NCBI RefSeq assembly: GCF_003122215.1
Contig: NZ_QEYD01000008.1
Location: 1-64,000 of the forward strand
From: Pararhodobacter marinus
GTDB lineage: Bacteria > Pseudomonadota > Alphaproteobacteria > Rhodobacterales > Rhodobacteraceae
DNA: 64,000 nucleotides
Reading direction: 5' to 3'
In this document: positions 841-18,403 of the stretch, piece by piece
How positions within the stretch are numbered: position 1 is the first letter of the stretch
Layout: each line of letters begins with the position of its first letter
Translations under genes and position numbers: made by a program
Notes under the pieces: generated by a model
Told to the model about the DNA's origin: nothing
What the model saw: only the letters and a program-made list of their open reading frames with translations
The model's database searches: none

Positions 841-882
841 AGCCTTGCCTAGCCAGCCGCGACATGCGGCGCAACAGAAAGA

Positions 883-892
883 TTGCATACAA
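883..892. promoter_or_regulatory. Candidate GntR/MatR operator in the gntR-matB intergenic region
   Basis: The sequence TTGCATACAA is a near-palindrome (TTG-N4-CAA) in the 203 bp divergent gap. It resembles the TTGTATAC-type core I recall for rhizobial MatR. A second TTTGCATAA follows 6 bp later and GTGCAATT after that, so the half-site TTGCA/TGCAA recurs within about 35 bp. A weak matB promoter (TTTGCA, 17 bp, TACACA) would start inside this cluster, so a bound regulator could block it. Confidence 0.4.
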
Positions 893-1043
893 TTTCGTTT
901 GCATAAAGTGCAATTCTTGCTACACAGACGACAATCGCACGCGTCCGGCTGTCGATCCGCCCGGATCGTCCGGGCATCGGTACGCAGCCGCGGGCAGTGT
1001 CGCCGTTTGCGGACCCGACGCCCCAGCCGGAAAGGAGAACGCC

Positions 1044-4109: not shown

Positions 4110-4140
4110 GCGCAGCCCCGGGCTTCCCCATGCTGTCCTG

Positions 4141-4171
4141 TGCCGCTCCGGTCCTGCCGGGGCGGCATTTT
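4141..4171 (+). terminator. Rho-independent terminator of the matB-amidase unit
   Basis: An 11 bp stem (TGCCGCTCCGG paired with CCGGGGCGGCA, one T-G wobble), a TCCTG loop and a TTTT run begin 31 bp after the amidase stop. It ends both matB and the amidase. Confidence 0.72.
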
Positions 4172-4205
4172 GCGTCCTGATGGGGCGTCAGCCGTCCCGC
4201 GCATG

Positions 4206-4231
4206 AAAAAGGGCGCCGCGGAACGGCGCCC
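4206..4231 (-). terminator. Rho-independent terminator of the dctPQM operon
   Basis: Read on the minus strand, a perfect 7 bp stem GGGCGCC/GGCGCCC with a 7-base loop is followed directly by TTTTT. It lies 25 bp after the dctP stop. Confidence 0.78.
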
Positions 4232-4255
4232 TTCACGTTCTTGATGAAGGCGGGA

Positions 4256-5257
4256 TTATTCGGGCGCGTAGTCGGCGACCATCGCGCGCAGTTCCTCGAT
4301 CCGGGCCGGGTCGACGTCTTCAAGCAGCTCGGCCATGCTGGCGGTCGCGTCGCGGAACGTGGCGATTTCATCGTCGTTCGGGCGGTAGACCGCGATCCCG
4401 GCGGCTTCGAGTGCCTCCATCGATTCCTCCTGCGAGGTCTCGACCCAGGCGAAGACATCACGCAGACCGGCGAGCGAGGCTTCTTCGAGCTGGGCGCGCT
4501 GTTCGTCCGACAGCCCGTCCCACCACGCGGTCGAGGCCAGCGCGACGCGGGCCGACATGATCACGCGGGCATCGGTGAAGTTGGTGAACAGGTCGGCCTG
4601 GCCGAAGGCAAGCGGCACGACCGAGGCGTTGACATAGCCGTTGGCGATGCCGGTCTGCAGCGCGTTCGGGACTTCCGAGAACGGGATGACGACGCCGTCG
4701 GCGCCCATCATGCGGAACATTTCCAGCTGGTTGGCATCGAGCGCGCGCATCCGCAGGCCCTGCATGTCCGACACGCTGCGCACTTCCTTCTGGTTGTTGA
4801 AGATGCCCAGCATACCGCCCGTGGGCACGATGGCCAGAACGTGCATCCCTTCGGCCGCCAGCTCTTCGTTGATCGTGTCGAGATAGTCGCTCTCGGTGAA
4901 GAAGTCGAAGACATGCTGCGAATTGGCGAAGGTATAGGGCAGCTGCATCACCCGCATTTCGGGCACGAACTGATAGGTCACGGCATAGTTCGACATCGAC
5001 ATGTCGAGGATCCCGGCGCGGATCTGGTCCAGACGCTCGTCTTCGCCGCCGATGGAATCGCGCGGGAAGCTCTCGGTCTCCCAGCCCATGTCGCGCAGGG
5101 TCGACAGCATCGTGTCGACATAGCGATAGCTGCCCTGCGTTTCACGGTCGGGGGTGGAATCGAGCGCGATGGCGATCGACTGGGCATGCGCGGCGGGCGC
5201 GGCAAAGGCAAAGGCCAGCGCGGCTGCGGCGGTAAGGGGGCGGAAGGAAAGGGTCAT
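4256..5257 (-). CDS. dctP: TRAP transporter substrate-binding protein (DctP family)
   Basis: A 333-residue periplasmic solute receptor. A classical signal peptide occupies residues 1-25 (n-region Arg, Ala/Phe-rich core, AHA cleavage site). The mature protein has the DctP pattern, including the SMSNYAVTYQFVPEMRVMQL segment around 95-115 and the region near residue 165 (MQGLRMRALDANQLEMFR) that holds the conserved Arg which salt-bridges substrate carboxylates. It captures an organic acid for the DctQM membrane complex. The start lies 3 bp after the dctQ stop with GGAG upstream, so dctM-dctQ-dctP form one operon with the receptor last. Substrate unknown; malonate (MatPQM-like) or a product of the divergent tetR cluster are the contextual options. 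Confidence 0.92.
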   Translation of the reverse strand: MTLSFRPLTAAAALAFAFAAPAAHAQSIAIALDSTPDRETQGSYRYVDTMLSTLRDMGWETESFPRDSIGGEDERLDQIRAGILDMSMSNYAVTYQFVPEMRVMQLPYTFANSQHVFDFFTESDYLDTINEELAAEGMHVLAIVPTGGMLGIFNNQKEVRSVSDMQGLRMRALDANQLEMFRMMGADGVVIPFSEVPNALQTGIANGYVNASVVPLAFGQADLFTNFTDARVIMSARVALASTAWWDGLSDEQRAQLEEASLAGLRDVFAWVETSQEESMEALEAAGIAVYRPNDDEIATFRDATASMAELLEDVDPARIEELRAMVADYAPE

Positions 5258-5260
5258 TGA

Positions 5261-5827
5261 TCACTCCGTGGCATGGGATGAGAATTGAGTGGCATAGACG
5301 GTTTCGCGTGCCAGCACGCGCGGCGAAACGAGGGCGCCAAGTCCCGCAAGGCCGTGGAAGAGGATGAGGATCAGCGCGACCGGCAGTGCCGCCGCCATCC
5401 ACGCGGTCGACACTTCCAGCCCTTCCGAGGTGCGGCCGATCTGGCGGATGAAGAACGGGTAGGTGAACCACAGCACCGGCAGGAAGAAGAGCCACGAGCC
5501 CACGAAGCGCGAAAAGGCCTGCGCCTTCAGCCGCCAGACCACGTTCGCAGGCGGGTTCACCATTGCCGGGTCGGCATGGGTATGGAACGCGCAGGACGCG
5601 CCCAGAAGCCCGCCCCAGACCATCAGCCAGCGGGCCAGCTCCTCGGTCCAGAAGGGGGGTGAGTCAAAGGCGTAGCGGGCGATGACCTGCAGCATCATCG
5701 TGGCCAGCATGCCCAGAAAGAACAGCCCGGCCGCGCGGCGCGCGATCCAGTTGATCGCTTCCGAGAGCGCATAGACGCGGTCGGCGATACGGACGAGGAC
5801 GGAGTCGGAGGAAAACACGTTGGTCAT
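5261..5827 (-). CDS. dctQ: TRAP transporter small permease subunit (DctQ family)
   Basis: A 188-residue integral membrane protein with four predicted hydrophobic segments (around 28-50, 65-85, 108-128 and 148-170), the size and topology of DctQ. The sequence between the first two segments, PPFWTEELARWLMVW, is the highly conserved DctQ signature. It pairs with DctM to form the sodium-driven membrane unit of the transporter. Translation starts at ATG 5827 with the GAGG that contains the dctM stop region acting as ribosome site; the two genes are separated by 10 bp, so they are probably translationally coupled. Confidence 0.91.
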   Translation of the reverse strand: MTNVFSSDSVLVRIADRVYALSEAINWIARRAAGLFFLGMLATMMLQVIARYAFDSPPFWTEELARWLMVWGGLLGASCAFHTHADPAMVNPPANVVWRLKAQAFSRFVGSWLFFLPVLWFTYPFFIRQIGRTSEGLEVSTAWMAAALPVALILILFHGLAGLGALVSPRVLARETVYATQFSSHATE

Positions 5828-5837
5828 CGTCGGATCC

Positions 5838-7124
5838 TCAATTCACGAAGCCGGTCAGGCGCGGCAGGAACAGGCTGATTTCCGGCACGAAGGTCAGCAG
5901 CAGAAGCACGCCCAGTTGCACCAGCAGGAAGGGCGCGGCCTTGCGCGCGATCGACCAGTAGGGCGTCCCCGACACCGCCGACACGACCAGAAGCGCCGCG
6001 CCGAACGGGGGGGTGACGATGCCCAGCGTCAGGTTGACGATGATCACGATGCCCAGATGCACGGGATCGGCGCCCATCTCGATCCCGGTGGGGACGAGCA
6101 GCGGCACCAGCAGCGCCAGCGCCACGGGAACCTCCAGAAACATGCCCGCGACCAGGAAGACGACGTTGAGCAGCAGCAGGTATTTCCAGCCCTCGAAGCC
6201 CAGCCCGATCAGTTGCTCGGCCAGTCGCGCGGGGATCTGTTCCAGGCCCGCCAGATAGCCGAAGATCGCCACCGCCGAGAGCAGGATGAAGATCGACCCT
6301 GACAGGATCGCGGTGCGCTCGAGGCTTTCGATCAGCTTGCGGATCGTCATCTGCCGATAGATCAGGCCCGCGATGATCGCGCAGCAGACGGCGACGCCCG
6401 CGGCCTCGGTCGGGGTCATGATCCCGAACACGATCCCCGACAGGATGATCACCGGAATGACCGTCGCGGGCAGGGCATAGACAAAGCGGCGCAGGATCTC
6501 GCGCGGGGGCATGCGTTCGCCCGTGGGGTGGTTGTGGCGGTGGGCGATCCACGCATTGGCGGCGAACAGCGCGCCGGCCATCACCAGACCCGGCAGGATC
6601 CCGGCGATGAACATGGCCGCGACCGAGGTGTTCATCAGCGCGCCGTAGAAGATCATGATGATGGACGGCGGAATGATCGGTCCGATCACCGACGAGGCCG
6701 CCGTGATCGCGCCCGCGTAGCTGGAGGTATAGCCCGCCTTGCGCATCGCCGGAACCAGCGTATTCGATACCGAGGCCGCATCAGCCATGGCCGAGCCCGA
6801 GATGCCCGCGAAGAAGACCGAGGTGAGGATGTTCACATGCCCCAGCCCGCCCTTGAGCCGTGCCATCAGCGCCATGGCCAGATCGATGAGCGCCTTGGTC
6901 ACGCCCGAGCGGTTCATGATCTCGCCCGCCAGGATGAACAGCGGCATCGACATGATCGAGAACAGGTCGATATGGGCGATGATCCGTTGCGGCGCGGCGG
7001 CCAGGAACCGCGCGCGGTCAGCCGCGAAGAACGACAGCACCGAGGCGGCCCCGATCAGATGCGCCAGCACCGCCCCGCCGAACAGCAAGGCGATGGACAA
7101 AAGGAGGATCGGAAGTGCGGCCAT
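5838..7124 (-). CDS. dctM: TRAP transporter large permease subunit (DctM family)
   Basis: A 428-residue polytopic membrane protein with about 12-13 hydrophobic segments. Conserved DctM features are visible: SMPLFILAGEIMNRSG near the N-terminus, GISGSAMADAA, ASSVIGPIIPPSIIMIFYG, and NLTLGIVTPPFGAALLV near the end. It is the transport subunit of the TRAP system. The start ATG at 7122-7124 follows AGGAGC; a longer in-frame extension to 7244 lacks family similarity and runs through the promoter region. It is the first gene of the operon and is divergent from the tetR-type gene, sharing a 168 bp AT-rich control region. Confidence 0.92.
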   Translation of the reverse strand: MAALPILLLSIALLFGGAVLAHLIGAASVLSFFAADRARFLAAAPQRIIAHIDLFSIMSMPLFILAGEIMNRSGVTKALIDLAMALMARLKGGLGHVNILTSVFFAGISGSAMADAASVSNTLVPAMRKAGYTSSYAGAITAASSVIGPIIPPSIIMIFYGALMNTSVAAMFIAGILPGLVMAGALFAANAWIAHRHNHPTGERMPPREILRRFVYALPATVIPVIILSGIVFGIMTPTEAAGVAVCCAIIAGLIYRQMTIRKLIESLERTAILSGSIFILLSAVAIFGYLAGLEQIPARLAEQLIGLGFEGWKYLLLLNVVFLVAGMFLEVPVALALLVPLLVPTGIEMGADPVHLGIVIIVNLTLGIVTPPFGAALLVVSAVSGTPYWSIARKAAPFLLVQLGVLLLLTFVPEISLFLPRLTGFVN

Positions 7125-7260
7125 GGGCGCTCCTGGTCGTGGTGTTGTGACGGCGTCGGGGAAAAAACTGCGCCGTGCGATGTCGAGGTCTGTTGATCTT
7201 TCAATTGCACAGTGTTCTATAAATGAATGGAGCAAGCGCCCCATTGCAAGAAATAATTAG

Positions 7261-7273
7261 ATTTAGCCTAAAT
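7261..7273. promoter_or_regulatory. Palindromic operator candidate upstream of the tetR-type gene
   Basis: ATTTAG-C-CTAAAT is a perfect 6+6 palindrome with a one-base centre, 19 bp before the regulator ATG. It sits in the most AT-rich part of the dctM-tetR divergent region (about 7195-7280). The size and place fit a TetR autoregulatory site. A TATAAA lies at about 7219-7224 on the plus strand; its -35 partner is unclear. Confidence 0.45.
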
Positions 7274-7292
7274 ATTTTGCAGCGTGGTGGAG

Positions 7293-8039
7293 ATGAGCGA
7301 GAAAAAAGAACAGAAAACCAACGGCAAGCCGCGCGGACGCGCGGCGGCGGTCGGGCTGACCAAGGACCGGATTGTCGATGTCGCCATCGCGCAGATCGAC
7401 GAGAAGGGCTTTCACGCCTTCTCGATGCGCGAACTGGCCCGCGCGCTGGGCGTGTCTCCCAACAACATCTACTGGCATGTCGGCGGCACCAAGGAAGACC
7501 TGTTCGGCGAGATCGCCGCGCGCTTCACCGCGGAGGTGAGCCAGAGCCTGCCGCGCGACAAGCCGTGGCAGGACCGGTTGCGCACGGTGTTCCTGTCCTA
7601 CCGCGAAGCCGTCAGCGATCACGCCAATGTCGCGCCGCTTCTGGGTGCGCAGCTGAAATCCAACGGCGTCGCCAACCTCGCGCTGGTCGAGGCGGTGCTG
7701 ACCGCGCTGCACGACGCGGGCTATCGCGGGCCGGGGATGCGGGACGCGTTCAACGCGCTGATCGGCGGGCTGTGCGGTTTCGTGACGATGGAATTCGCGC
7801 CCGCGCCCGACGACAAGGCGCAGGAATGGGAGGCGCTGTTCGCCGAACGCGTGGCCGGCATCGATCCTGCGCTCTTTCCCTACACCCATTCGGTGTTGCC
7901 GGAATTTTCGAACCGGATCTTCGTCCTGCGCTGGGAAAACGGCAAGGACGTCTCTTATGCCAGCAGTTTCGACTTCCTGCTCGATCTGCTGATCGAAGGC
8001 CTTTCGGCCCATGCCCCCAACCAAACCCCCACATCGTGA
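7293..8039 (+). CDS. TetR/AcrR-family transcriptional regulator
   Basis: A 248-residue regulator. Residues about 20-68 hold the TetR helix-turn-helix (IDEKGFHAFSMRELARALGV then SPNNIYWHVGGTKEDL). The C-terminal two thirds is a helical ligand-binding domain similar in length to the TetR_C class of tetracycline-repressor-like proteins. I chose ATG 7293 (MSEKKEQ); a GTG at 7284 in frame is possible, and neither has an ideal ribosome site. It is divergent from dctMQP and leads, 16 bp later, into the ridA-to-phosphotriesterase run, so it probably controls one or both units, with a catabolic intermediate as inducer. Ligand unknown. Confidence 0.86.
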   Translation: MSEKKEQKTNGKPRGRAAAVGLTKDRIVDVAIAQIDEKGFHAFSMRELARALGVSPNNIYWHVGGTKEDLFGEIAARFTAEVSQSLPRDKPWQDRLRTVFLSYREAVSDHANVAPLLGAQLKSNGVANLALVEAVLTALHDAGYRGPGMRDAFNALIGGLCGFVTMEFAPAPDDKAQEWEALFAERVAGIDPALFPYTHSVLPEFSNRIFVLRWENGKDVSYASSFDFLLDLLIEGLSAHAPNQTPTS

Positions 8040-8055
8040 AACAAAGGACACGACC

Positions 8056-8400
8056 ATGACCGATCTTCCCAAGCTCCCGTTCTCGAAAACCCGCCGCATC
8101 GACAGCACCGTCTACCTGTCGGGCGAGCTTGGCTTTGACGCCGAGGGCAAGATCCCCGCCGGGATCGAAGCGCAGACCCGCAACTGCCTGAACCGCATTC
8201 AGGCGACGCTGGAAACCGAAGGGCTGGGGCTGGCCAATGTGGTGTCGTGCACCTGCTATCTGACCGATACCGCCGATTTTGCGGCGTTCAACGCGGTCTA
8301 CGGCCAGTTCTTCGCCGATCCGCTTCCCGTGCGCACGACCGTTCGCGCGGACCTGATGATCGACGCCAAGGTCGAGATCACCGTCATCGCCAAGGCCTGA
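8056..8400 (+). CDS. RidA-family enamine/imine deaminase
   Basis: A 114-residue member of the RidA/YjgF/UK114 family. The conserved Arg that binds the imino-acid carboxylate is present in LPVRTTVRAD, and the closing VEITVIAKA strand is typical. RidA proteins hydrolyse reactive 2-enamine/2-imine intermediates to 2-oxoacids and ammonia. That fits the gene that follows, an FAD-dependent oxidase of the DadA type, whose immediate product would be an imino acid. The start is ATG 8056 behind AAAGGA; an upstream in-frame ATG at 8011 lies inside the tetR gene. This is a pathway-dedicated RidA rather than the housekeeping copy, judging by context. Confidence 0.9.
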   Translation: MTDLPKLPFSKTRRIDSTVYLSGELGFDAEGKIPAGIEAQTRNCLNRIQATLETEGLGLANVVSCTCYLTDTADFAAFNAVYGQFFADPLPVRTTVRADLMIDAKVEITVIAKA

Positions 8401-8445
8401 TCCGCCGCGCCGGGGGAGAGCGGCGCGCAACCTGAAAGAAACGAC

Positions 8446-9693
8446 ATGTCGGAAATTCTTGTTCTCGGGGCCGGGATGGTGGGGGTCTCCACCGCGCTGG
8501 CGCTGCAGGAAAAGGGCCATGCGGTCACGCTGGCCGACCGCCGCGAACCGGGGCGCGAGACCAGCTTCGGCAATGCGGGCATCATTCAGGTCGAAGCCGC
8601 CGAACCCTACGCGATGCCGCGCGCCATGGGCGAGCTCTTGCGCTATGCGCTGGGGCGGTCGAACGATCTTGTCTGGTCGCCCTCGGGCGTCGCCGGCATG
8701 GCGCCCGCCCTGTGGCGCTACTGGCTGGCCTCGGCGCCGTCGCGCCGGGCGGCGCTGGGCGCGGTCTATGCGCAGATGACCGCGCGCTCGACCGCCGATC
8801 ACGCGCCGCTGATCGCGGCCTCGGGATCCGAGAACCTGATCGCGCGCGACGGGCTGGCGCTGGTGTTCCGACATGCCGCCGGGTTCGAGGCCGAAGCGGC
8901 GAATGCCGCGCGGCTGGCCGAAACCTATGGCATCGAATCGCGCGTTCTGGACGGCGCCGAATGGCTGCGCGAGGAGCCGGCGCTGAAAGCGGCACCGGCG
9001 GGCGCGGTGCATTACACCAAAAGCTGGAGCGTCGCCGATCCCGGCGCCCTGACGGCGGCCTATGCCGACCTGTTCGTGCGGCGCGGCGGGCGGTTCGTGC
9101 AGGTGGACGCCGACAGCCTGAGCGCCACGCCGTCCGGCTGGCGCGTCAGGGGACCCGAAGGCCCGATCTCGGCCGCGCGGGCCGTGCTGTGCCTGGGGCC
9201 CTGGACCGGCGCGCTGCTGCGCCGGTTCGGCCTGCGCGTGCCGATGGTTCTGAAGCGTGGCTATCACGCGCATTACGATGCGCCGCAGCGTCCGCGCCGC
9301 CCCTATCTGGATGCCGATAACGGCGTTGTCCTGACGCCCATGCGCGACGGTTTGCGGATGGCCACCGGCGCCGCGCTGGTGCCGCAGGGCGCGCCCGCCG
9401 ATCCGCGCCAGTTGCGCCGGGCCGAGCGCCAGGTCGCGGACCTGATCGAGCTGGGACCGCGCGTCGAGGCGCCGCAATGGTTCGGCACGCGCCCCTGCCT
9501 GCCCGGAATGCTGCCGATGGTCGGCGCGGTGCCGGGCCAGACCGGCCTGTGGGTCAATTTCGGTCACGGCCACCAGGGCCTCACGCTGGGCCCGACCACC
9601 GCCGGCCTGCTGGCCCAAGCCATGGCGGGCGAGACTTCCCCGCTTCACGATGCGCTGGCGCCCGCCACGCAGCTCAAAAGGACAATTCGATGA
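8446..9693 (+). CDS. FAD-dependent D-amino-acid dehydrogenase/oxidase (DadA-like)
   Basis: A 415-residue DAO-fold flavoenzyme. The N-terminal dinucleotide motif ILVLGAGMVGVSTALALQEK and the early TSFGNAGII segment are characteristic of DadA-like dehydrogenases. The C-terminal GTRPCLPGMLPMVGAVPGQ and FGHGHQGLTLGPTTAGLLA form the second FAD/substrate signature. It should oxidise a D-amino acid, secondary amine or related compound to an imine, passing electrons to the membrane quinone pool or oxygen. Together with the upstream RidA it makes a plausible oxidation-plus-imine-hydrolysis pair. Its TGA overlaps the next ATG (ATGA at 9690). Substrate is not predictable; glycine or sarcosine-type oxidases are alternatives. 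Confidence 0.86.
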   Translation: MSEILVLGAGMVGVSTALALQEKGHAVTLADRREPGRETSFGNAGIIQVEAAEPYAMPRAMGELLRYALGRSNDLVWSPSGVAGMAPALWRYWLASAPSRRAALGAVYAQMTARSTADHAPLIAASGSENLIARDGLALVFRHAAGFEAEAANAARLAETYGIESRVLDGAEWLREEPALKAAPAGAVHYTKSWSVADPGALTAAYADLFVRRGGRFVQVDADSLSATPSGWRVRGPEGPISAARAVLCLGPWTGALLRRFGLRVPMVLKRGYHAHYDAPQRPRRPYLDADNGVVLTPMRDGLRMATGAALVPQGAPADPRQLRRAERQVADLIELGPRVEAPQWFGTRPCLPGMLPMVGAVPGQTGLWVNFGHGHQGLTLGPTTAGLLAQAMAGETSPLHDALAPATQLKRTIR

Positions 9694-10991
9694 CGCAACC
9701 GCTCGCCACTCCGAACCCGAAGATCCCGGTCGATGCCGCGCGTCTCGATGCCGCCCATGCCGCCGCACTGAACGCCTATGTCGCGCGCAACCCGGGCAGT
9801 GCCGCCGCGCTCGACCGCGCGCGCCGGGTCCTGCCCGGCGGCAATACCCGCACCTCGCTCTGGTCCGAACCCTTCCCGCTCTGCATCGAGGGCGGCGAGG
9901 GCTGCCGCATCCGCGACGTGGACGGGCATGTCTATGTCGACCTGCTGGGCGAGTTCACCGCGGGCATCTTCGGCCATTCCTCGCCGGTCCTGGCCAAGGC
10001 GCTGGCCGATGCCCATGCGCGCGGGATCAACCTGTCCTCGCACACGCCCTACGAGGTCGAGCTGGCCGAGCGGCTTTGCGCCCGGTTCCCCTCGATGGAT
10101 CGCGTGCGCTTCGCCAATTCCGGGACCGAGGCCAACCTGATGGCCGTGACCGCCGCGCGGCTGGTCACCGGGCGCGGCACGGTCGTGGTGTTCAAGGGCG
10201 GCTATCACGGCGGGTTCCTGACCTTCGGCGGCGGCGGATCGCCGGTCAACGTGCCCTTCGACTATGCCTGCCTGCCCTATAACGACATCGACGCGGCCAC
10301 GGCCGAGTTCGCGGCGCATGGGGACAAGATCGCCTGCGTGCTGGTCGAGCCGATGCTGGGCGCGGGGGGCTGCATTCCGGGCGCGCCGGACTTTCTGCAG
10401 GCCTTGCGCAAGCTTGCCAGCGAACACGGTGCCTTCCTGATTTTCGACGAGGTGCAGACCGCGCGGATGAGCGAAGGCGGCGCGCAGGCGCGGCTGGGCA
10501 TCACACCCGACATGACCACGGTGGGCAAGTTCTTCGGCGGCGGTCTGGCCTTTGGCGCCTTCGGCGGGCGGGCCGACATCATGGACCATTTCGACCCCTC
10601 GCGCGCCGGGTCGCTGCCGCATGCGGGCACGTTCAACAACAACAGCCTGACCATGGCGGCGGGCGTGACGGCGATCGACACCTACCTGACCGCCGTATCG
10701 CTTGACGCGCTCTATGCGCGCGGCGAGACGCTGCGGGCGAGCCTCACTGCCCTTTTCGCCGAGCGCGGGCTGCCCTTCCGGGTCAGCGGCATGGGCGCGA
10801 TCATGAACATCCATCCCGACAGCGGCGTCTCGGCCGAAATGGATCGCAAGCTGCTCGCGCTGTTGCACCTGACGATGCAGGAACGGGGCTATTACTTCGC
10901 CGCGCGGGGTCTCATGGCGCTGTCCTTTGCCATCGGCGATGACGAGATCGCCGGCTTTCTGGCCGCTCTGGGCGAAGGGATCGGGCTGTGA
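9690..10991 (+). CDS. Class III PLP aminotransferase, beta-amino-acid (beta-phenylalanine) transaminase type
   Basis: A 433-residue fold-type I aminotransferase of the glutamate-1-semialdehyde mutase-like branch. Visible are FANSGTEANLMAVTAA (phosphate binding), KGGYHGG, the Asp of FDEVQTAR that holds the pyridine nitrogen, and the Schiff-base Lys in TTVGKFFGGGLAFGAFGG. The sequence closely resembles what I remember of Variovorax beta-phenylalanine aminotransferase, including the two Arg residues that bind the substrate carboxylate (NTRTSLW near residue 50 and AARGLMALS near 410). That points to a beta-amino acid amino donor rather than to heme synthesis. The ATG overlaps the preceding stop by 4 bp. 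Confidence 0.8.
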   Translation: MTQPLATPNPKIPVDAARLDAAHAAALNAYVARNPGSAAALDRARRVLPGGNTRTSLWSEPFPLCIEGGEGCRIRDVDGHVYVDLLGEFTAGIFGHSSPVLAKALADAHARGINLSSHTPYEVELAERLCARFPSMDRVRFANSGTEANLMAVTAARLVTGRGTVVVFKGGYHGGFLTFGGGGSPVNVPFDYACLPYNDIDAATAEFAAHGDKIACVLVEPMLGAGGCIPGAPDFLQALRKLASEHGAFLIFDEVQTARMSEGGAQARLGITPDMTTVGKFFGGGLAFGAFGGRADIMDHFDPSRAGSLPHAGTFNNNSLTMAAGVTAIDTYLTAVSLDALYARGETLRASLTALFAERGLPFRVSGMGAIMNIHPDSGVSAEMDRKLLALLHLTMQERGYYFAARGLMALSFAIGDDEIAGFLAALGEGIGL

Positions 10992-12499
10992 TCGAAAGGG
11001 GCTTCGACTGCGTTCTGCGCGGGGGCCGGGTGATGGATCCTGCGACCGGGTTCGACCGTGTCGCGGATATCGGGCTGTGCGACGGCCGGATCGTTGCCAT
11101 CGGCGGCGACCTGGGCGCGGGGCGCGTCGAATTGCAGGCTGAGGGGCTGGTCGTGGCGCCGGGCTTTGTCGACATCCACGCGCATGGCCAGTCGCTGGCC
11201 GCCGACCGGATGCAGGCTTTCGACGGCGTGACTACCGCGCTGGAACTGGAAGTGGGCGCGCTGCCGGTCCGGGACTGGTACGCCGCGCAATCCGGGCGCC
11301 GGCGGGTGTGCAATTACGGCACCTCGGCGGCCTGGCTCTTCGCCCGCCAACAGGTGAAGATCGGCCTGGCGCCGGATGCCAGCGTGTCGTCGATGATCGG
11401 CATGGGGCAGGGGGCGGACGACCGCCGCTGGTCGGTCGAGGCCGCAAGCGACACCGAGGCGGAACGCATCGCCGACCATCTGCGCGCGGCGCTGGAAGAC
11501 GGCGCCATCGGCATCGGCATCCCCAATGGCTACGCGCCCGGCGCCGGGATCAAGGAGCTTGCGCTCGTCTGCGATCTGGCCGCCGAGGCCGGAAGCGTGA
11601 CCTTCACCCATATCGCCAATGCCTCGAATATCGACCTGGAAAGCTCGGTCGACAGCTATGTGCAGATCATCGGACTGGCCGGGGCCACCGGCGCGCATAT
11701 GCATGTCTGCCACCTGAACTCGACCTCGCTTCTGGATGTCGAGCGGGCCGCGCAGGTGCTGGGCCGGGCACAGGCGCAGGGCCTGCCGATCACGGTCGAG
11801 GCCTATCCCTATGGCACCGGCTCGACGGTGGTCAGCGCGGGCTTCCTGCAACAGCCCGATTTCACCGGCCGCACCGGATCGACCTATGACCGGGTCGAGC
11901 TGTTGCGCACGGGCGAGCGGTTCACCGATGCGGGCGCCGTACGCGACGCCGCGGCGCGGGATTCGGGCGATATCATCCTGTGGCATTTCCTCGATACCCA
12001 GAACGATCCCGAGCATCAGCGCCTGCTGGACGTGTCGGTGCTCTATCCCGGCGGGGCCATCGCCTCGGACGCGCTGCCCTGGGTGATGCCCGATGGCAGC
12101 CTGTACGAAGGCGAAGCCTGGCCGCTGCCGGAAACGGCGGTGTCGCATCCGCGCTCGTCCGGGACCTTCACGCGATTTCTGGGCGACTATGTGCGCGAGC
12201 GGGGCAAGATCGGCCTGATGGAGGCGCTGGCCAAATGCACGATCATTCCCACGCGGGTGATCGAGGCATCGGCCCCGGCCATGCGGCGCAAGGGGCGGGT
12301 GCAGGTGGGCTGCGATGCCGATCTGGTCGTCTTCGACCCCGCCGGCCTGCGCGACTGCGCCACGTTCCGGGACATGAACCGTCCGGCGCAGGGGATGCGG
12401 CACGTGATCGTCAACGGCGTCCCGGTCATCCGCGACGGCGCGCTGGATACGGACGCGGCGCCCGGCCGGGCGATCCGGGGCCGGGGCCTGTCGCCATGA
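10988..12499 (+). CDS. Amidohydrolase-superfamily N-acyl-D-amino-acid deacylase-like enzyme
   Basis: A 503-residue metal-dependent amidohydrolase. The small beta-sandwich wraps the ends (LRGGRVMDPATG at the start, VGCDADLVVFDPA near the end), and the metal site begins with HAH at 64-66 (GFVDIHAHG). A likely bridging Glu (GVTTALELEVG), His residues in FTHIANAS and HMHVCHLNS, and an Asp in AIASDALPW follow. The layout matches D-aminoacylase/N-acyl-D-glutamate deacylase. It probably removes an acyl or carbamoyl group to free an amino acid for the neighbouring oxidase or transaminase. It starts at GTG 10988, whose TG is shared with the upstream TGA. Dihydroorotase/hydantoinase-type chemistry is possible. 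Confidence 0.8.
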   Translation: MIERGFDCVLRGGRVMDPATGFDRVADIGLCDGRIVAIGGDLGAGRVELQAEGLVVAPGFVDIHAHGQSLAADRMQAFDGVTTALELEVGALPVRDWYAAQSGRRRVCNYGTSAAWLFARQQVKIGLAPDASVSSMIGMGQGADDRRWSVEAASDTEAERIADHLRAALEDGAIGIGIPNGYAPGAGIKELALVCDLAAEAGSVTFTHIANASNIDLESSVDSYVQIIGLAGATGAHMHVCHLNSTSLLDVERAAQVLGRAQAQGLPITVEAYPYGTGSTVVSAGFLQQPDFTGRTGSTYDRVELLRTGERFTDAGAVRDAAARDSGDIILWHFLDTQNDPEHQRLLDVSVLYPGGAIASDALPWVMPDGSLYEGEAWPLPETAVSHPRSSGTFTRFLGDYVRERGKIGLMEALAKCTIIPTRVIEASAPAMRRKGRVQVGCDADLVVFDPAGLRDCATFRDMNRPAQGMRHVIVNGVPVIRDGALDTDAAPGRAIRGRGLSP

Positions 12500-13407
12500 G
12501 CGCGCCCGTTCCGGTCATCGTGGTCACGGGCTTTCTGGGCGCGGGCAAGACGACGTTCATCAACCGACTGCTCGACAGCGGACAGCGCCGCATCGCCGCC
12601 ATCGTCAACGATTTCGGCGCGATCAATGTCGATGTCGAGCTGATCGAGGGGCAGGTCGACGCGGTGATCGGGCTGGATAACGGCTGCATCTGCTGCAGCC
12701 TGCAGGGCGACCTGCTGCGCGCGCTCAAGCAGGTGCTGGCGCATGATCCCGAAGCCATCGTGATCGAGGCCTCGGGCGTGTCCGACCCGCGCGGCATCGT
12801 GCAGACGCTGGCGGATCCGGTGCTCTGGGCCGATCTGCGGCTGGATTGCACGCTGTGCCTCATCGACGCCGAGGACATCGCCGAGACCCCGGAACGCATG
12901 GACGACCCGGTCTGGCGCGCGCAGGTGCAGGGTTCGGATTTCGCCTTTCTGTCGAAGGCGGGCGACGGGGATGCGTCGGCGCTGCGTGTGCGGATCGGGG
13001 CCGGTTTCCGCGTCCGGGTCTTCGACACGCGCGACGCGCTGCCGATGGACGTGCTGTTCTCGGGGGCCGGGGGGACGGCCGCCCATGACCCCGCCGGGAT
13101 CGTGCAGGACGCGTCCCGCTTTGCCTCGCTGAACTGGGAAAGCGCGGCGCCGTTGCCGTTCAACGGGTTCCAGCGGCTGATGGAGGATCTGGCCCCGGCG
13201 CTTTACCGCGCGAAGGGCTTCGTGTCGCTGATCGAACGGCCCGGTGCGCCGCTCTTGTTCCAGATGGTCGGACGACGCGCCACGTTCGAGCCCGCGGCGA
13301 AGCCCGTCGCGGGCTGTCGTCTGGTGCTGATCGGCGCGCGGGAGACATTCGATGTCGAGATGGCCCGCGGACGGCTGACGGCACTGGCAGAAGGAGACGC
13401 GCCATGA
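12496..13407 (+). CDS. CobW/P47K (G3E) family GTP-binding metallochaperone-like protein
   Basis: A 303-residue G3E P-loop GTPase. Walker A is GFLGAGKT at residues 12-19, and the metal-binding CxCC motif is CICC at 64-67 in DNGCICCS. The C-terminal part is a CobW_C-like domain (KGFVSLIERP and later). Such proteins deliver zinc or another metal to client enzymes at the cost of GTP. Encoded between two binuclear metallohydrolases, with 4 bp overlaps on both sides, it is probably their dedicated metal-insertion factor. The guanine-specificity motif is altered (SKAGD in place of NKxD), so base preference may be relaxed. The start is ATG 12496; longer in-frame extension runs into the preceding gene and is not real. 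Confidence 0.87.
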   Translation: MSAPVPVIVVTGFLGAGKTTFINRLLDSGQRRIAAIVNDFGAINVDVELIEGQVDAVIGLDNGCICCSLQGDLLRALKQVLAHDPEAIVIEASGVSDPRGIVQTLADPVLWADLRLDCTLCLIDAEDIAETPERMDDPVWRAQVQGSDFAFLSKAGDGDASALRVRIGAGFRVRVFDTRDALPMDVLFSGAGGTAAHDPAGIVQDASRFASLNWESAAPLPFNGFQRLMEDLAPALYRAKGFVSLIERPGAPLLFQMVGRRATFEPAAKPVAGCRLVLIGARETFDVEMARGRLTALAEGDAP

Positions 13408-14450
13408 GCGACAGACACGGCAAGGTTCAGACCGTTACGGGACTGGTCGAGCCCGGAACGCTGGGCGCCACGCTGATGCATGAGCATCTGTTCATCGATC
13501 TCAATCCGCCCGCCTTTCGCGGCGACACCCTGCCCGAGGGCGTCACCGACGACCCGCTGGACATGTGCAACTGCTTTCGCGCGCGCTACGGGCAGGGGCA
13601 TTTCACCGACAATTACCGCATCGACGATTTCGCCGTGGTCCGCGACGAGGTGCAGGAAATGGCCCGCGCCGGCGGCGGGGCGATCGTCGATCTGACCGTC
13701 GGCGGGCTGGGGCCGCGCCCGCTGCTGCTGCGCCGGATGGCCGAGGAAACGGGCGTGCCCATCGTCATGGGCGCGGGGCATTATGTCGAGGAATACCAGC
13801 TGGCCGAAACCGCCGGGATGAGCGTGGAGCAGCTGGTGGCCCAGATCACCGATCAGGTTCTGGTCGGCGCCTGGGGCACGGATGTGAAGGCCGGGATCAT
13901 CGGCGAGATCGGCTGCCAGTCGCCTTGGACCGAGCGCGAGAAGAAGGTGATGGAAGCCGCCATCGAGGCGCAGGCGGCGACCGGGGCCGCGCTGAATGTG
14001 CATCCGGGGCGCGAGGCCGACCAGCCGCAGGAAGTGGCGGATTTCGTGGCCGCGCGCGGCGGGCCGATGGACCGGCTGATCCTGAGCCATATCGACCGGA
14101 CGATCTTTGACGAGGACACGCTGTTCCGGCTGGCCGATACCGGCGCGGTGATCGAATATGACCTGTTCGGCTGGGAGACGAGCTATTACTGGCCCAATCC
14201 CGATATCGACCTGCCCAATGACGCGACCCGCATCCAGTGGCTGCGCAAGCTGGTCGAGCGCGGGCATATCGACCAGATCCTCATCAGCCACGATGTCTGC
14301 ACCAAGGGGCGGCTCGAACGTTTCGGCGGGCACGGGTTCCAGCATATCTTCGCCAATGTGGTGCCGCTGATGCTGCGGCGCGGGTTCGATCAGGCTCAGG
14401 TGGACCATATTCTGGTCACGAATCCGGCGCGGCTGCTGACGCTGCGCTGA
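13404..14450 (+). CDS. Phosphotriesterase-family metal-dependent hydrolase (PHP type)
   Basis: A 348-residue TIM-barrel hydrolase. The complete binuclear metal ligand set is present: His26 and His28 (MHEH), Glu168 (GIIGEIG), His200 (NVHPGR), His229 (LSHID) and Asp297 (ISHDV). A Glu replaces the carboxylated Lys of true phosphotriesterase, as in the E. coli phosphotriesterase homology protein. Family members act mostly as lactonases or on N-acyl/carbamoyl bonds rather than on organophosphates. It is the last gene of the tetR-linked run and overlaps the CobW gene by ATGA. The convergent acetyl-CoA hydrolase gene ends only 4 bp away, leaving no room for a conventional terminator. Confidence 0.87.
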   Translation: MSDRHGKVQTVTGLVEPGTLGATLMHEHLFIDLNPPAFRGDTLPEGVTDDPLDMCNCFRARYGQGHFTDNYRIDDFAVVRDEVQEMARAGGGAIVDLTVGGLGPRPLLLRRMAEETGVPIVMGAGHYVEEYQLAETAGMSVEQLVAQITDQVLVGAWGTDVKAGIIGEIGCQSPWTEREKKVMEAAIEAQAATGAALNVHPGREADQPQEVADFVAARGGPMDRLILSHIDRTIFDEDTLFRLADTGAVIEYDLFGWETSYYWPNPDIDLPNDATRIQWLRKLVERGHIDQILISHDVCTKGRLERFGGHGFQHIFANVVPLMLRRGFDQAQVDHILVTNPARLLTLR

Positions 14451-14454
14451 GGCG

Positions 14455-16341
14455 TCAGGCCCGGTCGGTGCGTTCCAGCGCGCCAAGCAGGGCCCAGCGT
14501 TCCAGCCGGTCTTTCAGCCCGGCGGGGCGGTCGAGTGCCATCCGGTCCAGCGCCCCGGCGTGACGCTTCGGATCCGCGCGCAGCCCTTCCCAGATCAGCC
14601 CGGCCAAGGCCCGGCGCGAGGCCTGCGCCTGTGACAGCCGGTCCAGCGCGGGCAGAAGGCGTTGTTCCACCGGGGTGAAATCGGTGCCGAACGGGAAATC
14701 GGGCAGCGCCTTGGGGCCCAGCCATGCGGCCAGCGCCTCGGGCGTGTTGCGCGTCCAGTCTTCGGGAAGGGTGAAGTCGTCCGGCAGTTTCCCCGCCTTT
14801 TTCGCCTGCGCCACCAGATCGGGCTGAAAGCGGCTGTCGGCCACGCGCAGCATCGCCCGGACGACCTCTTCGTCGCGCCTGCCGCGAAGGTCGGCCACGC
14901 CGTATTCCGTCACCACCACGTCGCGATAGGCGCGCGGCACGCTTTCATGCGGATGCTCCCAGACGATGTTCGAGCGCACCTCCCCTCCGCTTTCGCGGGT
15001 CGCGGGCAGGGTGATGATCGCCCGCGCGCCATCAAGAGCGAAGGCCTGTTCGATGAAGTTGAACTGCCCGCCGATACCGGAGACTTCGCGCCCGTCCGAG
15101 GTGGCATCGCTGACGATCCCGCCCAGAAGCGTCGCCTTCATCGCGGAATTGACGAAACGCGCATCCCGCCTTGCGGCCCGTTTCGCGCTTTCGTCGCCGT
15201 AAAGCTGGTTGGTGAACGAGACGGGCACCATCTGCAGGCGCGCGCGGGCCTCGGGCGGCAGGGACGCCAGCCGCTGATAGAAATCCCGGCAATCCACGAA
15301 AAAGCCCGCATGGATCGCCGCACCCTCCACCTCGCGGCGGATAACGCCCGCTTCGAACAGGTGCAAAAGCCCGTCCACCAGCATTTCGGTCACGCAATAC
15401 AGCCCGGTGTCGAAGGCGCCGCGTTCGGCCAGATCGGCGGGAAGGCGGGCGGCAAAGGGGCGGCCCGAGGTCATCGCGTCGAGCCGGCCCTCGTGCCGGG
15501 CGATCAGCGCATGGGCGACCGCGTCACCGATGGCGCCGATGCCGATCTGCAGCGTGCCGCCGTCGCGGATCATGCCCGCCACCTGCAACCCGATCGCGTG
15601 CTCGGCCAGCCCCACCGGGCGCTTCACGACCGAGAAAAGGTCGAAATCCGGCGGGTCGCGCAGAAGGTAATCCAGCTCGGCGCCCGAGATCGTCGCCGAA
15701 GGACCGGGCAGGGCGGGAAGATGCGCGTTCGTCTCCCCCGCCAGGATGAAGTCCAGCCGTCCCGCCTCGCGGTCGCGGAGCAGGTCGGCGGTGATGTCGG
15801 TATTGCACGACAGGTTCAGCGCGCCGTCAGGCTCTTCGGCCAGAAGCTGCAGCACCAAGTTGGGCTGCCAGCGGCGCACCACCTCCAGCGCGTGGGTATA
15901 GTTCGACGCGATATAGTGGCGCTGCGCCTGTTCCACGCCCAGCCAGCGCCCGGCCAGCATGAAGAACTCGGCCACCTCGATATTCGCGGGCAGTTGCCCC
16001 GCGCGCAGAAGGCGCGCGTATTCCGGCACCGGGTAATCGCCGAACAGCCGGGTTCGCGCGGGCCCGAGGAAGCGCTTCGCCATCCCCGCCTCTGCCTCGG
16101 GCGGCTCGAGCGTCAGCGCGGTGACGATGGACAGGCGGATGTCGGGCTGACGGGCAACGGAGCGGGTCAGCGCATCGACCAGCGTCACGGGCTTGCCCAG
16201 CCCCAGGGGCAGCGCCAGCCGGATCTCGGGGCCACAGCGCGCGATCAGGGCTTCGGCGATGGCGTCGGCATCGGCCAGAACCGGCCCCACGCGCATGGCC
16301 CCGCCGCTGATCGGCGCGTCGCTTGGCGGAACGTCAGGCAA
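14455..16341 (-). CDS. Acetyl-CoA hydrolase/transferase family protein
   Basis: A 628-residue protein of the acetyl-CoA hydrolase/CoA-transferase family (longer than the roughly 500-residue acetate CoA-transferases). The C-terminal catalytic half contains MVPVSFTNQLYGDE, the glycine-rich SGIGGQFNFIEQAF acyl-CoA loop (about residue 425) and VVVTEYGVADLRGRRDEEV. It would release or transfer CoA from acetyl-CoA or a related short acyl-CoA. It is the last gene of the beta-oxidation operon and overlaps the fadB-type gene by 8 bp, starting from TTG at 16339-16341; an ATG at 16296 (MRVGPVL) is an alternative start. Placement suggests overflow of acetyl-CoA or CoA transfer onto a fatty acid. Confidence 0.83.
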   Translation of the reverse strand: MPDVPPSDAPISGGAMRVGPVLADADAIAEALIARCGPEIRLALPLGLGKPVTLVDALTRSVARQPDIRLSIVTALTLEPPEAEAGMAKRFLGPARTRLFGDYPVPEYARLLRAGQLPANIEVAEFFMLAGRWLGVEQAQRHYIASNYTHALEVVRRWQPNLVLQLLAEEPDGALNLSCNTDITADLLRDREAGRLDFILAGETNAHLPALPGPSATISGAELDYLLRDPPDFDLFSVVKRPVGLAEHAIGLQVAGMIRDGGTLQIGIGAIGDAVAHALIARHEGRLDAMTSGRPFAARLPADLAERGAFDTGLYCVTEMLVDGLLHLFEAGVIRREVEGAAIHAGFFVDCRDFYQRLASLPPEARARLQMVPVSFTNQLYGDESAKRAARRDARFVNSAMKATLLGGIVSDATSDGREVSGIGGQFNFIEQAFALDGARAIITLPATRESGGEVRSNIVWEHPHESVPRAYRDVVVTEYGVADLRGRRDEEVVRAMLRVADSRFQPDLVAQAKKAGKLPDDFTLPEDWTRNTPEALAAWLGPKALPDFPFGTDFTPVEQRLLPALDRLSQAQASRRALAGLIWEGLRADPKRHAGALDRMALDRPAGLKDRLERWALLGALERTDRA

Positions 16342-18403
16342 AACGGTCCCAGCCCGGATCGGGGGCGAAACGGGGCCCGTGTTGTTCTTCGAGCCGGCGC
16401 AGCGTGTCCGGCACGTCGCCCCGGACCCGCGCGTAATGCATCGGCCCGCCGCGGAACGGCGCCCAGCCGGTGCCGAAGATCATCGCGGCATCCAGCCGGT
16501 CGGCATCGTCCACGACGCCCTCGCGCAGGCATTCGACGGCGGCATTGCACATCGGCAGGATCAGCCGGTCGATGATGCGCGCATCCTCGTCGTCGCCCGA
16601 AGCGGTCTCGGGCGGCGCTTCCTTGTCGTAATCGTAAAGACCCTTGCCCGCCTTGCGTCCGGTTTCGCCGTCCTCGACCTTGCGGGCCAGCCAGTCGGGC
16701 ACGTCGGCCACCGGGCGGTCCAGCCCACGGCCGAGCGAGCGCGCGACTTCCAGACAGATATCCAGCCCCACCTGATCGGCCAGCGTCACCGGCCCCATCG
16801 GCATCCCGAAAGCCAGCGCGGCGCGGTCGAGGCGCTCTTTGTCCATGCCCTCGTCCAGCATCAGCATGGCTTCCAGCATGTAGGGCGCCAGCACGCGGTT
16901 CACCAGGAAGCCGGGGTAATCGCGGACCCGCACCGGCAGGCGATCCAGCTCGCCCACGAAGGCCGCGAGCCGGTCCAGCGTCTCGGCGGCGACACCCTCG
17001 TGCGAGACCAGCTCGACCAGGGGCATCCGCGAGACGGGGTTGAAGAAGTGCAGCCCGGCGAAGCGGGCGGGATCGGGGGCTGCGTCGAACAATGTCTCAA
17101 GCCGCAGGCTGGAGGTGTTGGTCGCCAGGATCGCGTCCGGTTTCATCGTGTTGACCAGCCCGGAATAGATCTTTTCCTTCAGCTCGGCGCGTTCCGGCGC
17201 CGCTTCGATCACCAGATCGGCGCGGGCGCGGCCCAGGCCGTCGGGATCGGGCATCATCCGGTCGAGCGCATCGCGCGCGTCGATGCCAGACAGGTGGCGC
17301 TTTTCGTAAATCTTGGCGGCGCGCTTTACCGCCTTGCCCAGGGGGGCAAGCTTGACGTCTTCCAGCGTAACCCGCTTGCCCCGAAGCGCGGACCAGGCGG
17401 CGATTTCCGCGCCCATGGCGCCCGCGCCGATCACGTGCACATGCCCGATCCCCGAGGCCCCGCTGGCGCCCGATTTCAGCGTCCGGCGCAGAAAGAAGAC
17501 GCGGATCAGCGCCTGCGCGGTGGCGCTTTCGAGAAGCGTCGCGAACGACTCGATCTCGGCCTTCTGCATGGCGTCCGCGTCGCCGCCATGGTCGTGCCAC
17601 AGGTCGATCAGCGCATAGGGCGCGGGATAGTGGCGGCGCGGCGCGGATTTCTCGGCCTCCTGCCGCATTCGGGTCGCGGCAAGGCTGCGCGCGGGCGACA
17701 GGCGCATCGCGCCGGCCTTGAGCCCCGTCTCGCGCGCGGGCAAGTCGCCCCGGATCGCGGCCTCGATGGCGGCGTCCACATGGCGTTCGGGGACCAGCGC
17801 GTCGACCAGACCCAGTTTCTTGACCTTGCGGTCATGGATCGACTTGCCGGTCAGCATGGCCTGCATCGCCTCGATGGGGTCGATCAGCCGGGTCAGGCGA
17901 AAGGTGCCGCCCAGCCCCGGATGCAAGCCCAGCTGAACCTCGGGAAAGCCCGCCTTGACGCCGTCGATCCCGATCCGCCGGTCGCAGGCCAGCGCCAGTT
18001 CCAGCCCCCCGCCCAGCGTGTTGCCGTGGATCACCGCTATGGTGGGAACCTCGAGCCCGGCCAGACGGTCAAGCACGGCGTGGCCCTGCCGGATCAGATC
18101 CAGCGCGGCGTCGCGACCGATATCGGCGAACCCGTCGATATCCGCGCCCGCAGCAAAGCCGGACCGCTTGGCCGAACGGATGACCAGCGCTTTCGCACCG
18201 CCCAAGGTATCCAGAAGGCCGTCCAGCTCGCGCAGGACGGTCTCGGAAATGACGTTGGTGCCGGTATCGGGGCAATCGAGCCACAGCGTCACAACGCCTT
18301 TCGCGTCGCTGCGTCGCCACGCGGAGGCGCCGTCGGCACGGGGCACGTCCGAGGCCCCGTCAGGCCCGGCGTCGGGGGTCAGGGTGTTGAGGAAATCGCT
18401 CAT
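16334..18403 (-). CDS. fadB: Fatty-acid oxidation bifunctional enoyl-CoA hydratase/3-hydroxyacyl-CoA dehydrogenase
   Basis: A 689-residue two-domain enzyme. Residues about 1-190 are a crotonase domain with the oxyanion and glutamate segments GGGLELALACDRRIG and FPEVQLGLHPGLGGTFRL. Residues about 300-480 are the NAD-binding 3-hydroxyacyl-CoA dehydrogenase domain (VHVIGAGAMGAEIA, catalytic His in GLHFFNPVSRMPLVEL), followed by two helical C-terminal domains (GMPMGPVTLADQVGLDICLE). It hydrates and then oxidises acyl-CoA intermediates. The start ATG at 18401-18403 overlaps the thiolase stop (ATGA), so the two subunits of the trifunctional system are translationally coupled. FadJ-type is equally possible; I use fadB loosely. 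Confidence 0.9.
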   Translation of the reverse strand: MSDFLNTLTPDAGPDGASDVPRADGASAWRRSDAKGVVTLWLDCPDTGTNVISETVLRELDGLLDTLGGAKALVIRSAKRSGFAAGADIDGFADIGRDAALDLIRQGHAVLDRLAGLEVPTIAVIHGNTLGGGLELALACDRRIGIDGVKAGFPEVQLGLHPGLGGTFRLTRLIDPIEAMQAMLTGKSIHDRKVKKLGLVDALVPERHVDAAIEAAIRGDLPARETGLKAGAMRLSPARSLAATRMRQEAEKSAPRRHYPAPYALIDLWHDHGGDADAMQKAEIESFATLLESATAQALIRVFFLRRTLKSGASGASGIGHVHVIGAGAMGAEIAAWSALRGKRVTLEDVKLAPLGKAVKRAAKIYEKRHLSGIDARDALDRMMPDPDGLGRARADLVIEAAPERAELKEKIYSGLVNTMKPDAILATNTSSLRLETLFDAAPDPARFAGLHFFNPVSRMPLVELVSHEGVAAETLDRLAAFVGELDRLPVRVRDYPGFLVNRVLAPYMLEAMLMLDEGMDKERLDRAALAFGMPMGPVTLADQVGLDICLEVARSLGRGLDRPVADVPDWLARKVEDGETGRKAGKGLYDYDKEAPPETASGDDEDARIIDRLILPMCNAAVECLREGVVDDADRLDAAMIFGTGWAPFRGGPMHYARVRGDVPDTLRRLEEQHGPRFAPDPGWDRFA

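Follow-up and report, generated by a model that had tools for sequence, protein, structure and literature searches.

What is the role of a gene cassette that combines an imine deaminase, an amino-acid oxidase, a transaminase, two metallohydrolases and a CobW protein? The cassette lies within the first 64,000 nucleotides of contig NZ_QEYD01000008.1 of Pararhodobacter marinus (GCF_003122215.1; this whole stretch is referred to as the window), in a genome of 4.49 Mb on 30 contigs. A sequence-only reading had described seven genes at 7293–14450 as one complete route, in which a blocked amino compound is opened by two metalloenzymes sharing a private metallochaperone and then deaminated. We find that the conserved unit is larger (2607–14450) and includes divergent tripartite ATP-independent periplasmic (TRAP) transporter genes and an amidase, and that it is composed of modules that separate elsewhere. 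Its sequence is consistent with a multi-substrate catabolic operon that would deblock N-acyl D- and beta-amino acids and deaminate the products by two parallel routes, a reading that we hold with moderate confidence. The unit comprises the following features:

2607–4109, plus strand: amidase of the amidase-signature family (PF01425, E 5e-92; conserved in loci L054, L055 and L256)
4256–5257, minus strand: TRAP solute-binding protein DctP (PF03480, E 4e-44; kept in 4/4 cassettes)
5261–5827, minus strand: TRAP small permease DctQ (PF04290, E 2e-15)
5838–7124, minus strand: TRAP large permease DctM (PF06808, E 1e-101, from residue 49 of a longer open reading frame)
7190–7222, no strand: conserved non-coding element between the TRAP genes and tetR, candidate promoter or operator (alignment of 4/4 cassettes)
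7293–8039, plus strand: TetR-family regulator (PF00440, E 2.5e-12; PF02909, E 3.5e-6)
8056–8400, plus strand: RidA-like imine deaminase (PF01042, E 9e-27, Pfam cut-off passed)
8446–9693, plus strand: DadA-like amino-acid oxidase/dehydrogenase dependent on flavin adenine dinucleotide (FAD; PF01266, E 1.4e-52)
9690–10991, plus strand: class III beta-amino-acid transaminase (solved relatives 2yku and 4ao9)
10988–12499, plus strand: amidohydrolase of the D-aminoacylase fold (NF006560/PRK09061 match, GTG start), CobW partner
12496–13407, plus strand: CobW/COG0523 GTPase, candidate metallochaperone of the amidohydrolase (PF02492, E 1.6e-38; PF07683, E 2.7e-13)
13404–14450, plus strand: phosphotriesterase-family hydrolase (PTE) of the PTER type, candidate N-acyl-beta-amino-acid hydrolase (PF02126, E 4e-70)

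The order tetR-ridA-dadA-transaminase-amidohydrolase-cobW-PTE at 7293–14450 was confirmed by open reading frames and family searches. Four 4-base overlaps join the last five genes: ATGA (9690), GTGA (10988), ATGA (12496) and ATGA (13404). The gene set, families and overlaps described earlier are thus borne out by reading frames, family matches and recurrence in other genomes. A scan of 84,980 genomes with the amidohydrolase found, among its best 80 loci, two that hold all genes, including the TRAP transporter and the amidase, in unchanged order and orientation. These are L054 (Proteobacteria metagenome-assembled genome RHODO2; 70–95% protein identity to the window cassette) and L055 (Pseudooceanicola sediminis CY03; 66–82%). 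The shared order indicates more than a chance association. The flanks differ: the single match of six flanking window proteins to either locus is the region of a GntR-type regulator, at 50% and in L054 alone. The cassette is under purifying selection, with ratios of nonsynonymous to synonymous substitution of 0.06–0.32 across its genes in the comparisons of the window with L054 and L055, a range that leaves out the L055 transaminase row and in which the L054 dadA and L055 cobW rows extend beyond the true stop. Its GC content (0.684, compared to 0.675 for the rest) gives no compositional distinction. The full set is rare in the family. The PTE was detected at E<=1e-75 in 4 of 394 genomes of the GTDB family and the amidohydrolase at E<=1e-60 in 18 of 248, this genome counted in both, and all six enzymes occur together in only three loci found: the window, L054 and L055.

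Partial versions of the unit reveal how it divides. Locus L256 (genome G653, same family) carries the arrangement amidase-TRAP-TetR-RidA-DadA-transaminase-PTE at 75–88% identity. Its transaminase ends at 14658 and its PTE starts at 14711; only chance-level scraps of the amidohydrolase and CobW genes were detected between them, and the genome contains no amidohydrolase homologue at E<=1e-20 (profile A2). With L032 as the root, the tree built from six shared proteins has the order (((window,L054)100,L256)100,L055). The tree of transaminase and PTE shows this order too, though its inner fork is less well supported (76 and 93). Given this order, L256 would most simply represent a single joint loss of amidohydrolase and CobW. 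In L032, TetR-RidA-DadA-TRAP-amidohydrolase-CobW are found without the transaminase and PTE in the 16.5 kb read, while L198 and L202 contain transaminase and PTE as an isolated pair.

These variants bear directly on the proposal of a single linear route, in which a single blocked amino compound is the substrate of both hydrolases and every enzyme is one step of the same series. The last five genes are tightly coupled in translation and the set is completely conserved in three loci, which would suit such a route, but enzymes working in strict series would not tolerate the losses seen in L256, L032, L198 and L202, and we consider it unlikely. One complete route is unsupported as stated: the six enzymes are complete in three loci only and form clean modules elsewhere, a pattern that parallel branches fit better than one chain. 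Co-conservation, on which the proposal had been staked, extends to the whole set in L054 and L055 and gives way to split modules in other genomes.

The clearest of these modules is formed by the amidohydrolase and CobW. The latter has the P-loop GFLGAGKT, a GCICC (GCxCC) motif and a CobW_C domain above cut-off. By tblastn, CobW adjoins the amidohydrolase in all 86 loci initially compared (80 genome loci and 6 plasmids) and, after six further genome loci were added, follows it in 91 of 92, with L028 as the exception. The 92 loci (the best 80, the 6 plasmids and the 6 additional genome loci) are close relatives only and not independent; L029 and L077 are one contig counted twice, which leaves 90 of 91 distinct loci with CobW, and the L105 contig stops within CobW. 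A motif scan detected CobW in 87 of the 92, and tblastn adds L088, L094, L098 and L107, which shows the motif to be overly strict; neither method finds CobW in L028. The median spacing between the amidohydrolase stop and the start of the CobW reading frame is an overlap. Among distant amidohydrolase relatives (30–48% identity), CobW is present in 1 of 17 (L039).

CobW therefore partners the amidohydrolase and not both hydrolases, as indicated by the 91/92 linkage and by L256, which lacks the pair yet retains the PTE; a metallochaperone role is predicted. The notion of one chaperone serving two metalloenzymes is not upheld. CobW could also be a general zinc-starvation gene inserted by chance, without serving the amidohydrolase. 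COG0523 proteins are commonly Zur-regulated according to excerpts of a survey (PMC2770081; papers cited here by PMC number are represented by parts of their text), and L028 is a clade member without CobW. The adjacency in 91 of 92 loci and the co-loss in L256 speak against it and make this explanation rather improbable. The linked CobW proteins also branch apart from the other paralogues of this genome, although the tree is midpoint-rooted with long branches and is used only as consistent evidence. The main text of the same survey, as far as it is covered here, does not contain the CobW-amidohydrolase tie, and the part of PMC7174638 considered names D-aminoacylase and CobW genes with no link between them.

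The amidohydrolase scores 676.6 bits against NF006560/PRK09061, well above the cut-off of 340. Its Asp361, which by position corresponds to the catalytic Asp366, is kept in 92/92 near and 17/17 distant relatives. D-aminoacylases belong to subtype V, with a Cys/His/His metal site (PMC12017989, in part). This site is not found here: in the sequence alignment, which may be off by one, EVG takes the place of the NCG in 3gip and 1m7j. Cys is absent at that column in all 92 near and 17 distant relatives, and the adjacent Glu88 is invariant (109/109). Loss of the cysteine ligand was considered as the cause of the need for CobW and rejected, as Cys is equally missing from the 17 distant relatives, of which only one has CobW.

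Neighbours up to 6 kb from the amidohydrolase include FAD amino-acid oxidases (DAO) of two groups, in 15 and 14 loci (together 29 of 92), and TRAP permeases, in 17 of 92. Amidohydrolases of 42% identity without CobW adjoin a DadA-like oxidase (L246) or M20-GNAT-menC genes (L248). In the latter, a Streptomyces locus (5905–10656), the relative is accompanied by M20 and GNAT genes and by a racemase-like gene of the menC/enolase type, a set that resembles D-to-L amino acid conversion by N-acylation. In 24 of 92 loci (L045, L047, L048 and L050 among them), a peptidase gene of the M81 (MlrC) type is found no more than 6 kb from the amidohydrolase-CobW pair, often in the order TRAP-M81-amidohydrolase-CobW.

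The second module consists of the beta-transaminase and the PTE and recurs in several lineages. The assignment of the transaminase to the beta-amino-acid type agrees with its nearest solved structures, the beta-transaminase MesAT (2yku, E 1e-122) and the beta-phenylalanine aminotransferase VpAT (4ao9, E 2e-121). Its Arg54, Glu88 and Arg406 align with VpAT Arg41, Glu75 and Arg398. Roles of the R41/E75 motif in beta-transaminases are described in PMC9850050 (in part).

For the PTE, the nearest solved relative is the phosphotriesterase-related protein 9efa (E 2.4e-75). The metal ligands H26, H28, E168, H200, H229 and D297 correspond to H26, H28, E169, H201, H230 and D298 of PTER, and R203, R232 and Y262 to the substrate residues Arg204, Arg233 and Tyr263. 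All nine positions are kept in 32/32 PTE relatives, while both arginines are absent from the aligned segments of 3k2g and 3rhg. In the mouse, PTER hydrolyses N-acetyltaurine as well as N-acetyl-beta-alanine (PMC11374699, PMC13311154, both in part) and, in the excerpt of PMC13311154, favours N-acetylated beta-amino acids.

Among 385 genomes of the class, the PTE was found in 21, the transaminase in 60 and both in 16 (Fisher 2e-10, uncorrected for kinship). Of 27 unselected PTE places, 4 (L198, L202, L210 and L212, the last two in one genome, G519) have a transaminase within 8 kb, compared to 0.1 expected. Outside this count, 3 of 79 PTE-matching plasmid records were opened, picked by score. Plasmid L051 (Paraburkholderia graminis) reads BKACE-PTE-TetR (38%)-porin-MFS-transaminase-amidase (46% identical to the window amidase), L053 (Sinorhizobium meliloti) has a transaminase adjoining the PTE, and L052 has no close transaminase. 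The PTE-side beta-transaminase of L053 (8625–9886) matches in two pieces and looks broken in this strain. BKACE, the beta-keto-acid cleavage enzyme, acts on beta-keto acids, the expected products of a beta-transaminase. It adjoins PTE and transaminase in L051, L210 and L212 (confirmed by Pfam in L210), whereas the 13 transaminase loci that lack a PTE showed no BKACE. Each of the two BKACE-PTE-transaminase clusters of G519 is followed by an MttB-type methyltransferase (Pfam-confirmed in L210, by first-residue similarity in L212). In L257 and L258, the neighbours of PTE relatives with 43–44% identity are genes for an amino-acid ABC transporter, a further amidohydrolase and octopine-dehydrogenase-like FAD enzymes (the last identified by eye).

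The resemblance to PTER raises the possibility of a cassette for N-acetyltaurine or other aminosulfonates, in which the PTE frees taurine for deamination. PTER hydrolyses N-acetyltaurine and the sulfonate-needed Arg204 is kept in the PTE (PMC11374699, PMC13311154, in part). However, no sulfoacetaldehyde acetyltransferase (Xsc) scores above cut-off in the genome (best 285 against 676.4 bits), and this reading was set aside on that ground. In the transaminase, the arginine that beta-transaminases use for the carboxylate is retained, and the BKACE neighbours point to carboxylates, so that a taurine cassette appears very improbable.

The third module, amidase-RidA-DadA, is likewise separable and elsewhere adjoins D-serine ammonia-lyase. 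The pairing of oxidase and RidA suggested earlier proved to recur, being found again in L250 and L251. From 120 DadA-matching plasmid records, 3 were opened. A Salipiger plasmid carries RidA and DadA (66% and 54%) beside an amidase (71%), a D-serine ammonia-lyase above both NCBIfam cut-offs, an M20 peptidase and a gamma-glutamyltransferase. The window amidase is 71% (L251) and 64% (L252) identical to amidases adjoining DadA. In RidA, PVRTTV aligns with PARSCV of 5yu2, and the catalytic arginine (Arg105 of E. coli RidA) is kept. The AlphaFold model of the DadA-like protein (pLDDT 86.7) has the glycine-oxidase/DadA fold. By sequence, it has no match in the PDB at E<=1e-12, while a profile search did match.

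The fold of this enzyme also permits a purely beta-amino-acid cassette, with a CmiS2-type oxidase of N-substituted (for example N-carboxymethyl) beta-amino acids and two metallohydrolases that both deacylate beta-amino acids. Yet the top NCBIfam model is a D-amino acid dehydrogenase, the nearest RidA-DadA-amidase trio sits with a D-serine ammonia-lyase, and the pairing with RidA suits primary imines. We regard this arrangement as improbable.

Transport and regulation complete the unit. The idea that the divergent TRAP transporter belongs to it gained support from its presence in 4/4 cassettes and in L032. The start of DctM is more likely at 7124 (residue 41) than at the listed 7244, judging from the L054 and L256 reading frames, which begin there; this leaves a divergent control region of 168 bases. 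The window TetR is 87%, 66%, 80%, 45% and 38% identical to those of L054, L055, L256, L032 and L051, respectively. The element at 7190–7222, common to 4/4 cassettes, reads TTGATCTTT(C/T)AATTG(C/A)AC(A/G)GTGTTC(T/A)ATAA. A palindrome, ATTTAGcCTAAAT, at 7261 was considered as the TetR operator. It is not kept in L054, L055, L032 or L051 and is therefore not called as such, and the element at 7190–7222 is the better candidate.

Several genes surround the unit. Upstream of the amidase lie a GntR-type regulator (163–888, minus strand; TIGR03338-like, below cut-off), whose region is kept in L054, and an AMP-binding ligase (864–2561, plus strand), which is not. Convergent with the PTE, at 14455–19683 (minus strand), are an acetyl-CoA hydrolase/transferase, an enoyl-CoA hydratase/3-hydroxyacyl-CoA dehydrogenase-like reading frame (by eye) and a thiolase, which were not found in L054 or L055. 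In L054, a second set directly follows the cassette (13517–20094), with an M20 amidohydrolase, a TRAP transporter, another class III transaminase and a TetR 36% identical to that of the window. Counting matches in the window or elsewhere, this genome (G000) has 7 RidA-family proteins, 9 G3E GTPases, 4 BKACE and 1 M81.

The parallel-route reading builds on the observed gene set, order, conservation, modular splitting, CobW-amidohydrolase tie and active-site conservation. We infer from these the substrates, the metal and a common food source, which may be peptides or metabolites with D- and beta-residues. The operon, controlled by TetR, would serve N-blocked amino acids outside the ordinary L-alpha kind. 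Anionic substrates would be imported by the TRAP transporter. The amidohydrolase, charged with metal by CobW, would deblock N-acyl-D-amino acids and the PTER-type PTE N-acyl-beta-amino acids, while the amidase would act on amides or peptides. DadA could then oxidise D-amino acids to imino acids, which RidA would hydrolyse to keto acids, and the beta-transaminase would convert beta-amino acids to beta-keto acids.

A number of results weigh against this scheme. On the D-amino-acid side, RidA scores 83.7 bits against TIGR00004, under the cut-off of 106.25, and the best model of the DadA-like protein (PRK00711) gives 150.9 bits, under the cut-off of 383. In the fold search, glycine oxidase and CmiS2 rank above D-arginine dehydrogenase. 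The absence of the D-aminoacylase cysteine ligand means that D-specificity of the amidohydrolase is not assured, and no DadA of the window's group lies within 6 kb in 77 of 92 amidohydrolase-CobW loci. On the beta side, the VpAT aromatic-ring residues V43 and Y76 are replaced by Ser56 and Phe89, which bears on side-chain preference. PTER His300, docked against the substrate, is Cys299 in the PTE (Cys in 28/32 relatives, Asp in 2/32, Ala in 2/32). No transaminase lies within 8 kb at 24 of 32 PTE loci, and 44 of 60 transaminase genomes have no PTE match at cut-off. BKACE was sought in the cassette and not found; the four copies of the genome are on other contigs.

The earlier statement that no named pathway has this gene set stands for the exact set: in open-licence full texts, supplements excluded, we found no paper that joins it. 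The kind of pathway is known, as the regulated ong cluster for oxidised chitin (GlcNAc1A) of Pseudoalteromonas combines RidA with a deacetylase of the D-aminoacylase fold and a D-amino-acid deaminase, a route described by its authors as 'akin to D-amino acid catabolism' (PMC9537276, in part). In contrast to our cassette, the ong deaminase OngC depends on pyridoxal phosphate (PLP), the deacetylase is of the Cys/His/His subtype V, and the eight ong genes listed in that excerpt include no CobW, beta-transaminase or PTE. Neither an OngC-type PLP D-amino-acid deaminase nor a KDG kinase is among the cassette genes.

The individual enzymes also differ from their known counterparts. The amidohydrolase lacks the subtype V Cys of the D-aminoacylase/N-acyl-D-glutamate deacylase structures 1m7j and 3gip, with an invariant Glu beside its place, and its near clade has an obligate-looking CobW neighbour. 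The PTE shares the metal ligands and substrate residues of PTER (PMC11374699, PMC13311154, in part), but has Cys for His300 and a bacterial operon context. The transaminase matches MesAT and VpAT over its whole length with the three charged residues kept, whereas Ser and Phe occupy the aromatic-ring positions. CobW shares the P-loop, GCxCC and both CobW domains with COG0523 GTPases such as YjiA (1nij), but is tied to one amidohydrolase clade. In the microcystin cluster mlrCADBEF, the M81 peptidase MlrC occurs with the D-aminoacylase MlrF for a peptide with D- and beta-residues, comparable to the M81 genes near amidohydrolase-CobW pairs (PMC4520899, PMC6256522, in part). The cassette has no M81 gene, the single genomic copy being elsewhere, and the microcystin comparison is retained as an analogy and no more.

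What we regard as new is the presence of a probably client-specific CobW and of a PTER-type branch in an operon for the catabolism of blocked amino acids. More tentatively, two ideas may be taken together: a Cys-less D-aminoacylase-fold clade that needs a dedicated CobW for its metal, a client-specific pairing distinct from the roles of such proteins in cobalamin, nitrile hydratase or general zinc starvation, and a bacterial N-acyl-beta-amino-acid pathway from a PTER-type enzyme through the beta-transaminase to BKACE. Joined to a D-amino-acid oxidase branch, both would form one operon for D-/beta-residue peptides or metabolites.

For most bacterial CobW/COG0523 proteins no client is known. With its 4-base overlap, near-constant adjacency in one clade and joint natural loss, the amidohydrolase-CobW pair offers a simple, testable client-chaperone system. 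The cassette may also supply enzymes for the synthesis of chiral beta- and D-amino acids. Finally, the occurrence of bacterial PTER-type enzymes beside beta-transaminases and BKACE suggests an older, catabolic role of the PTER family.

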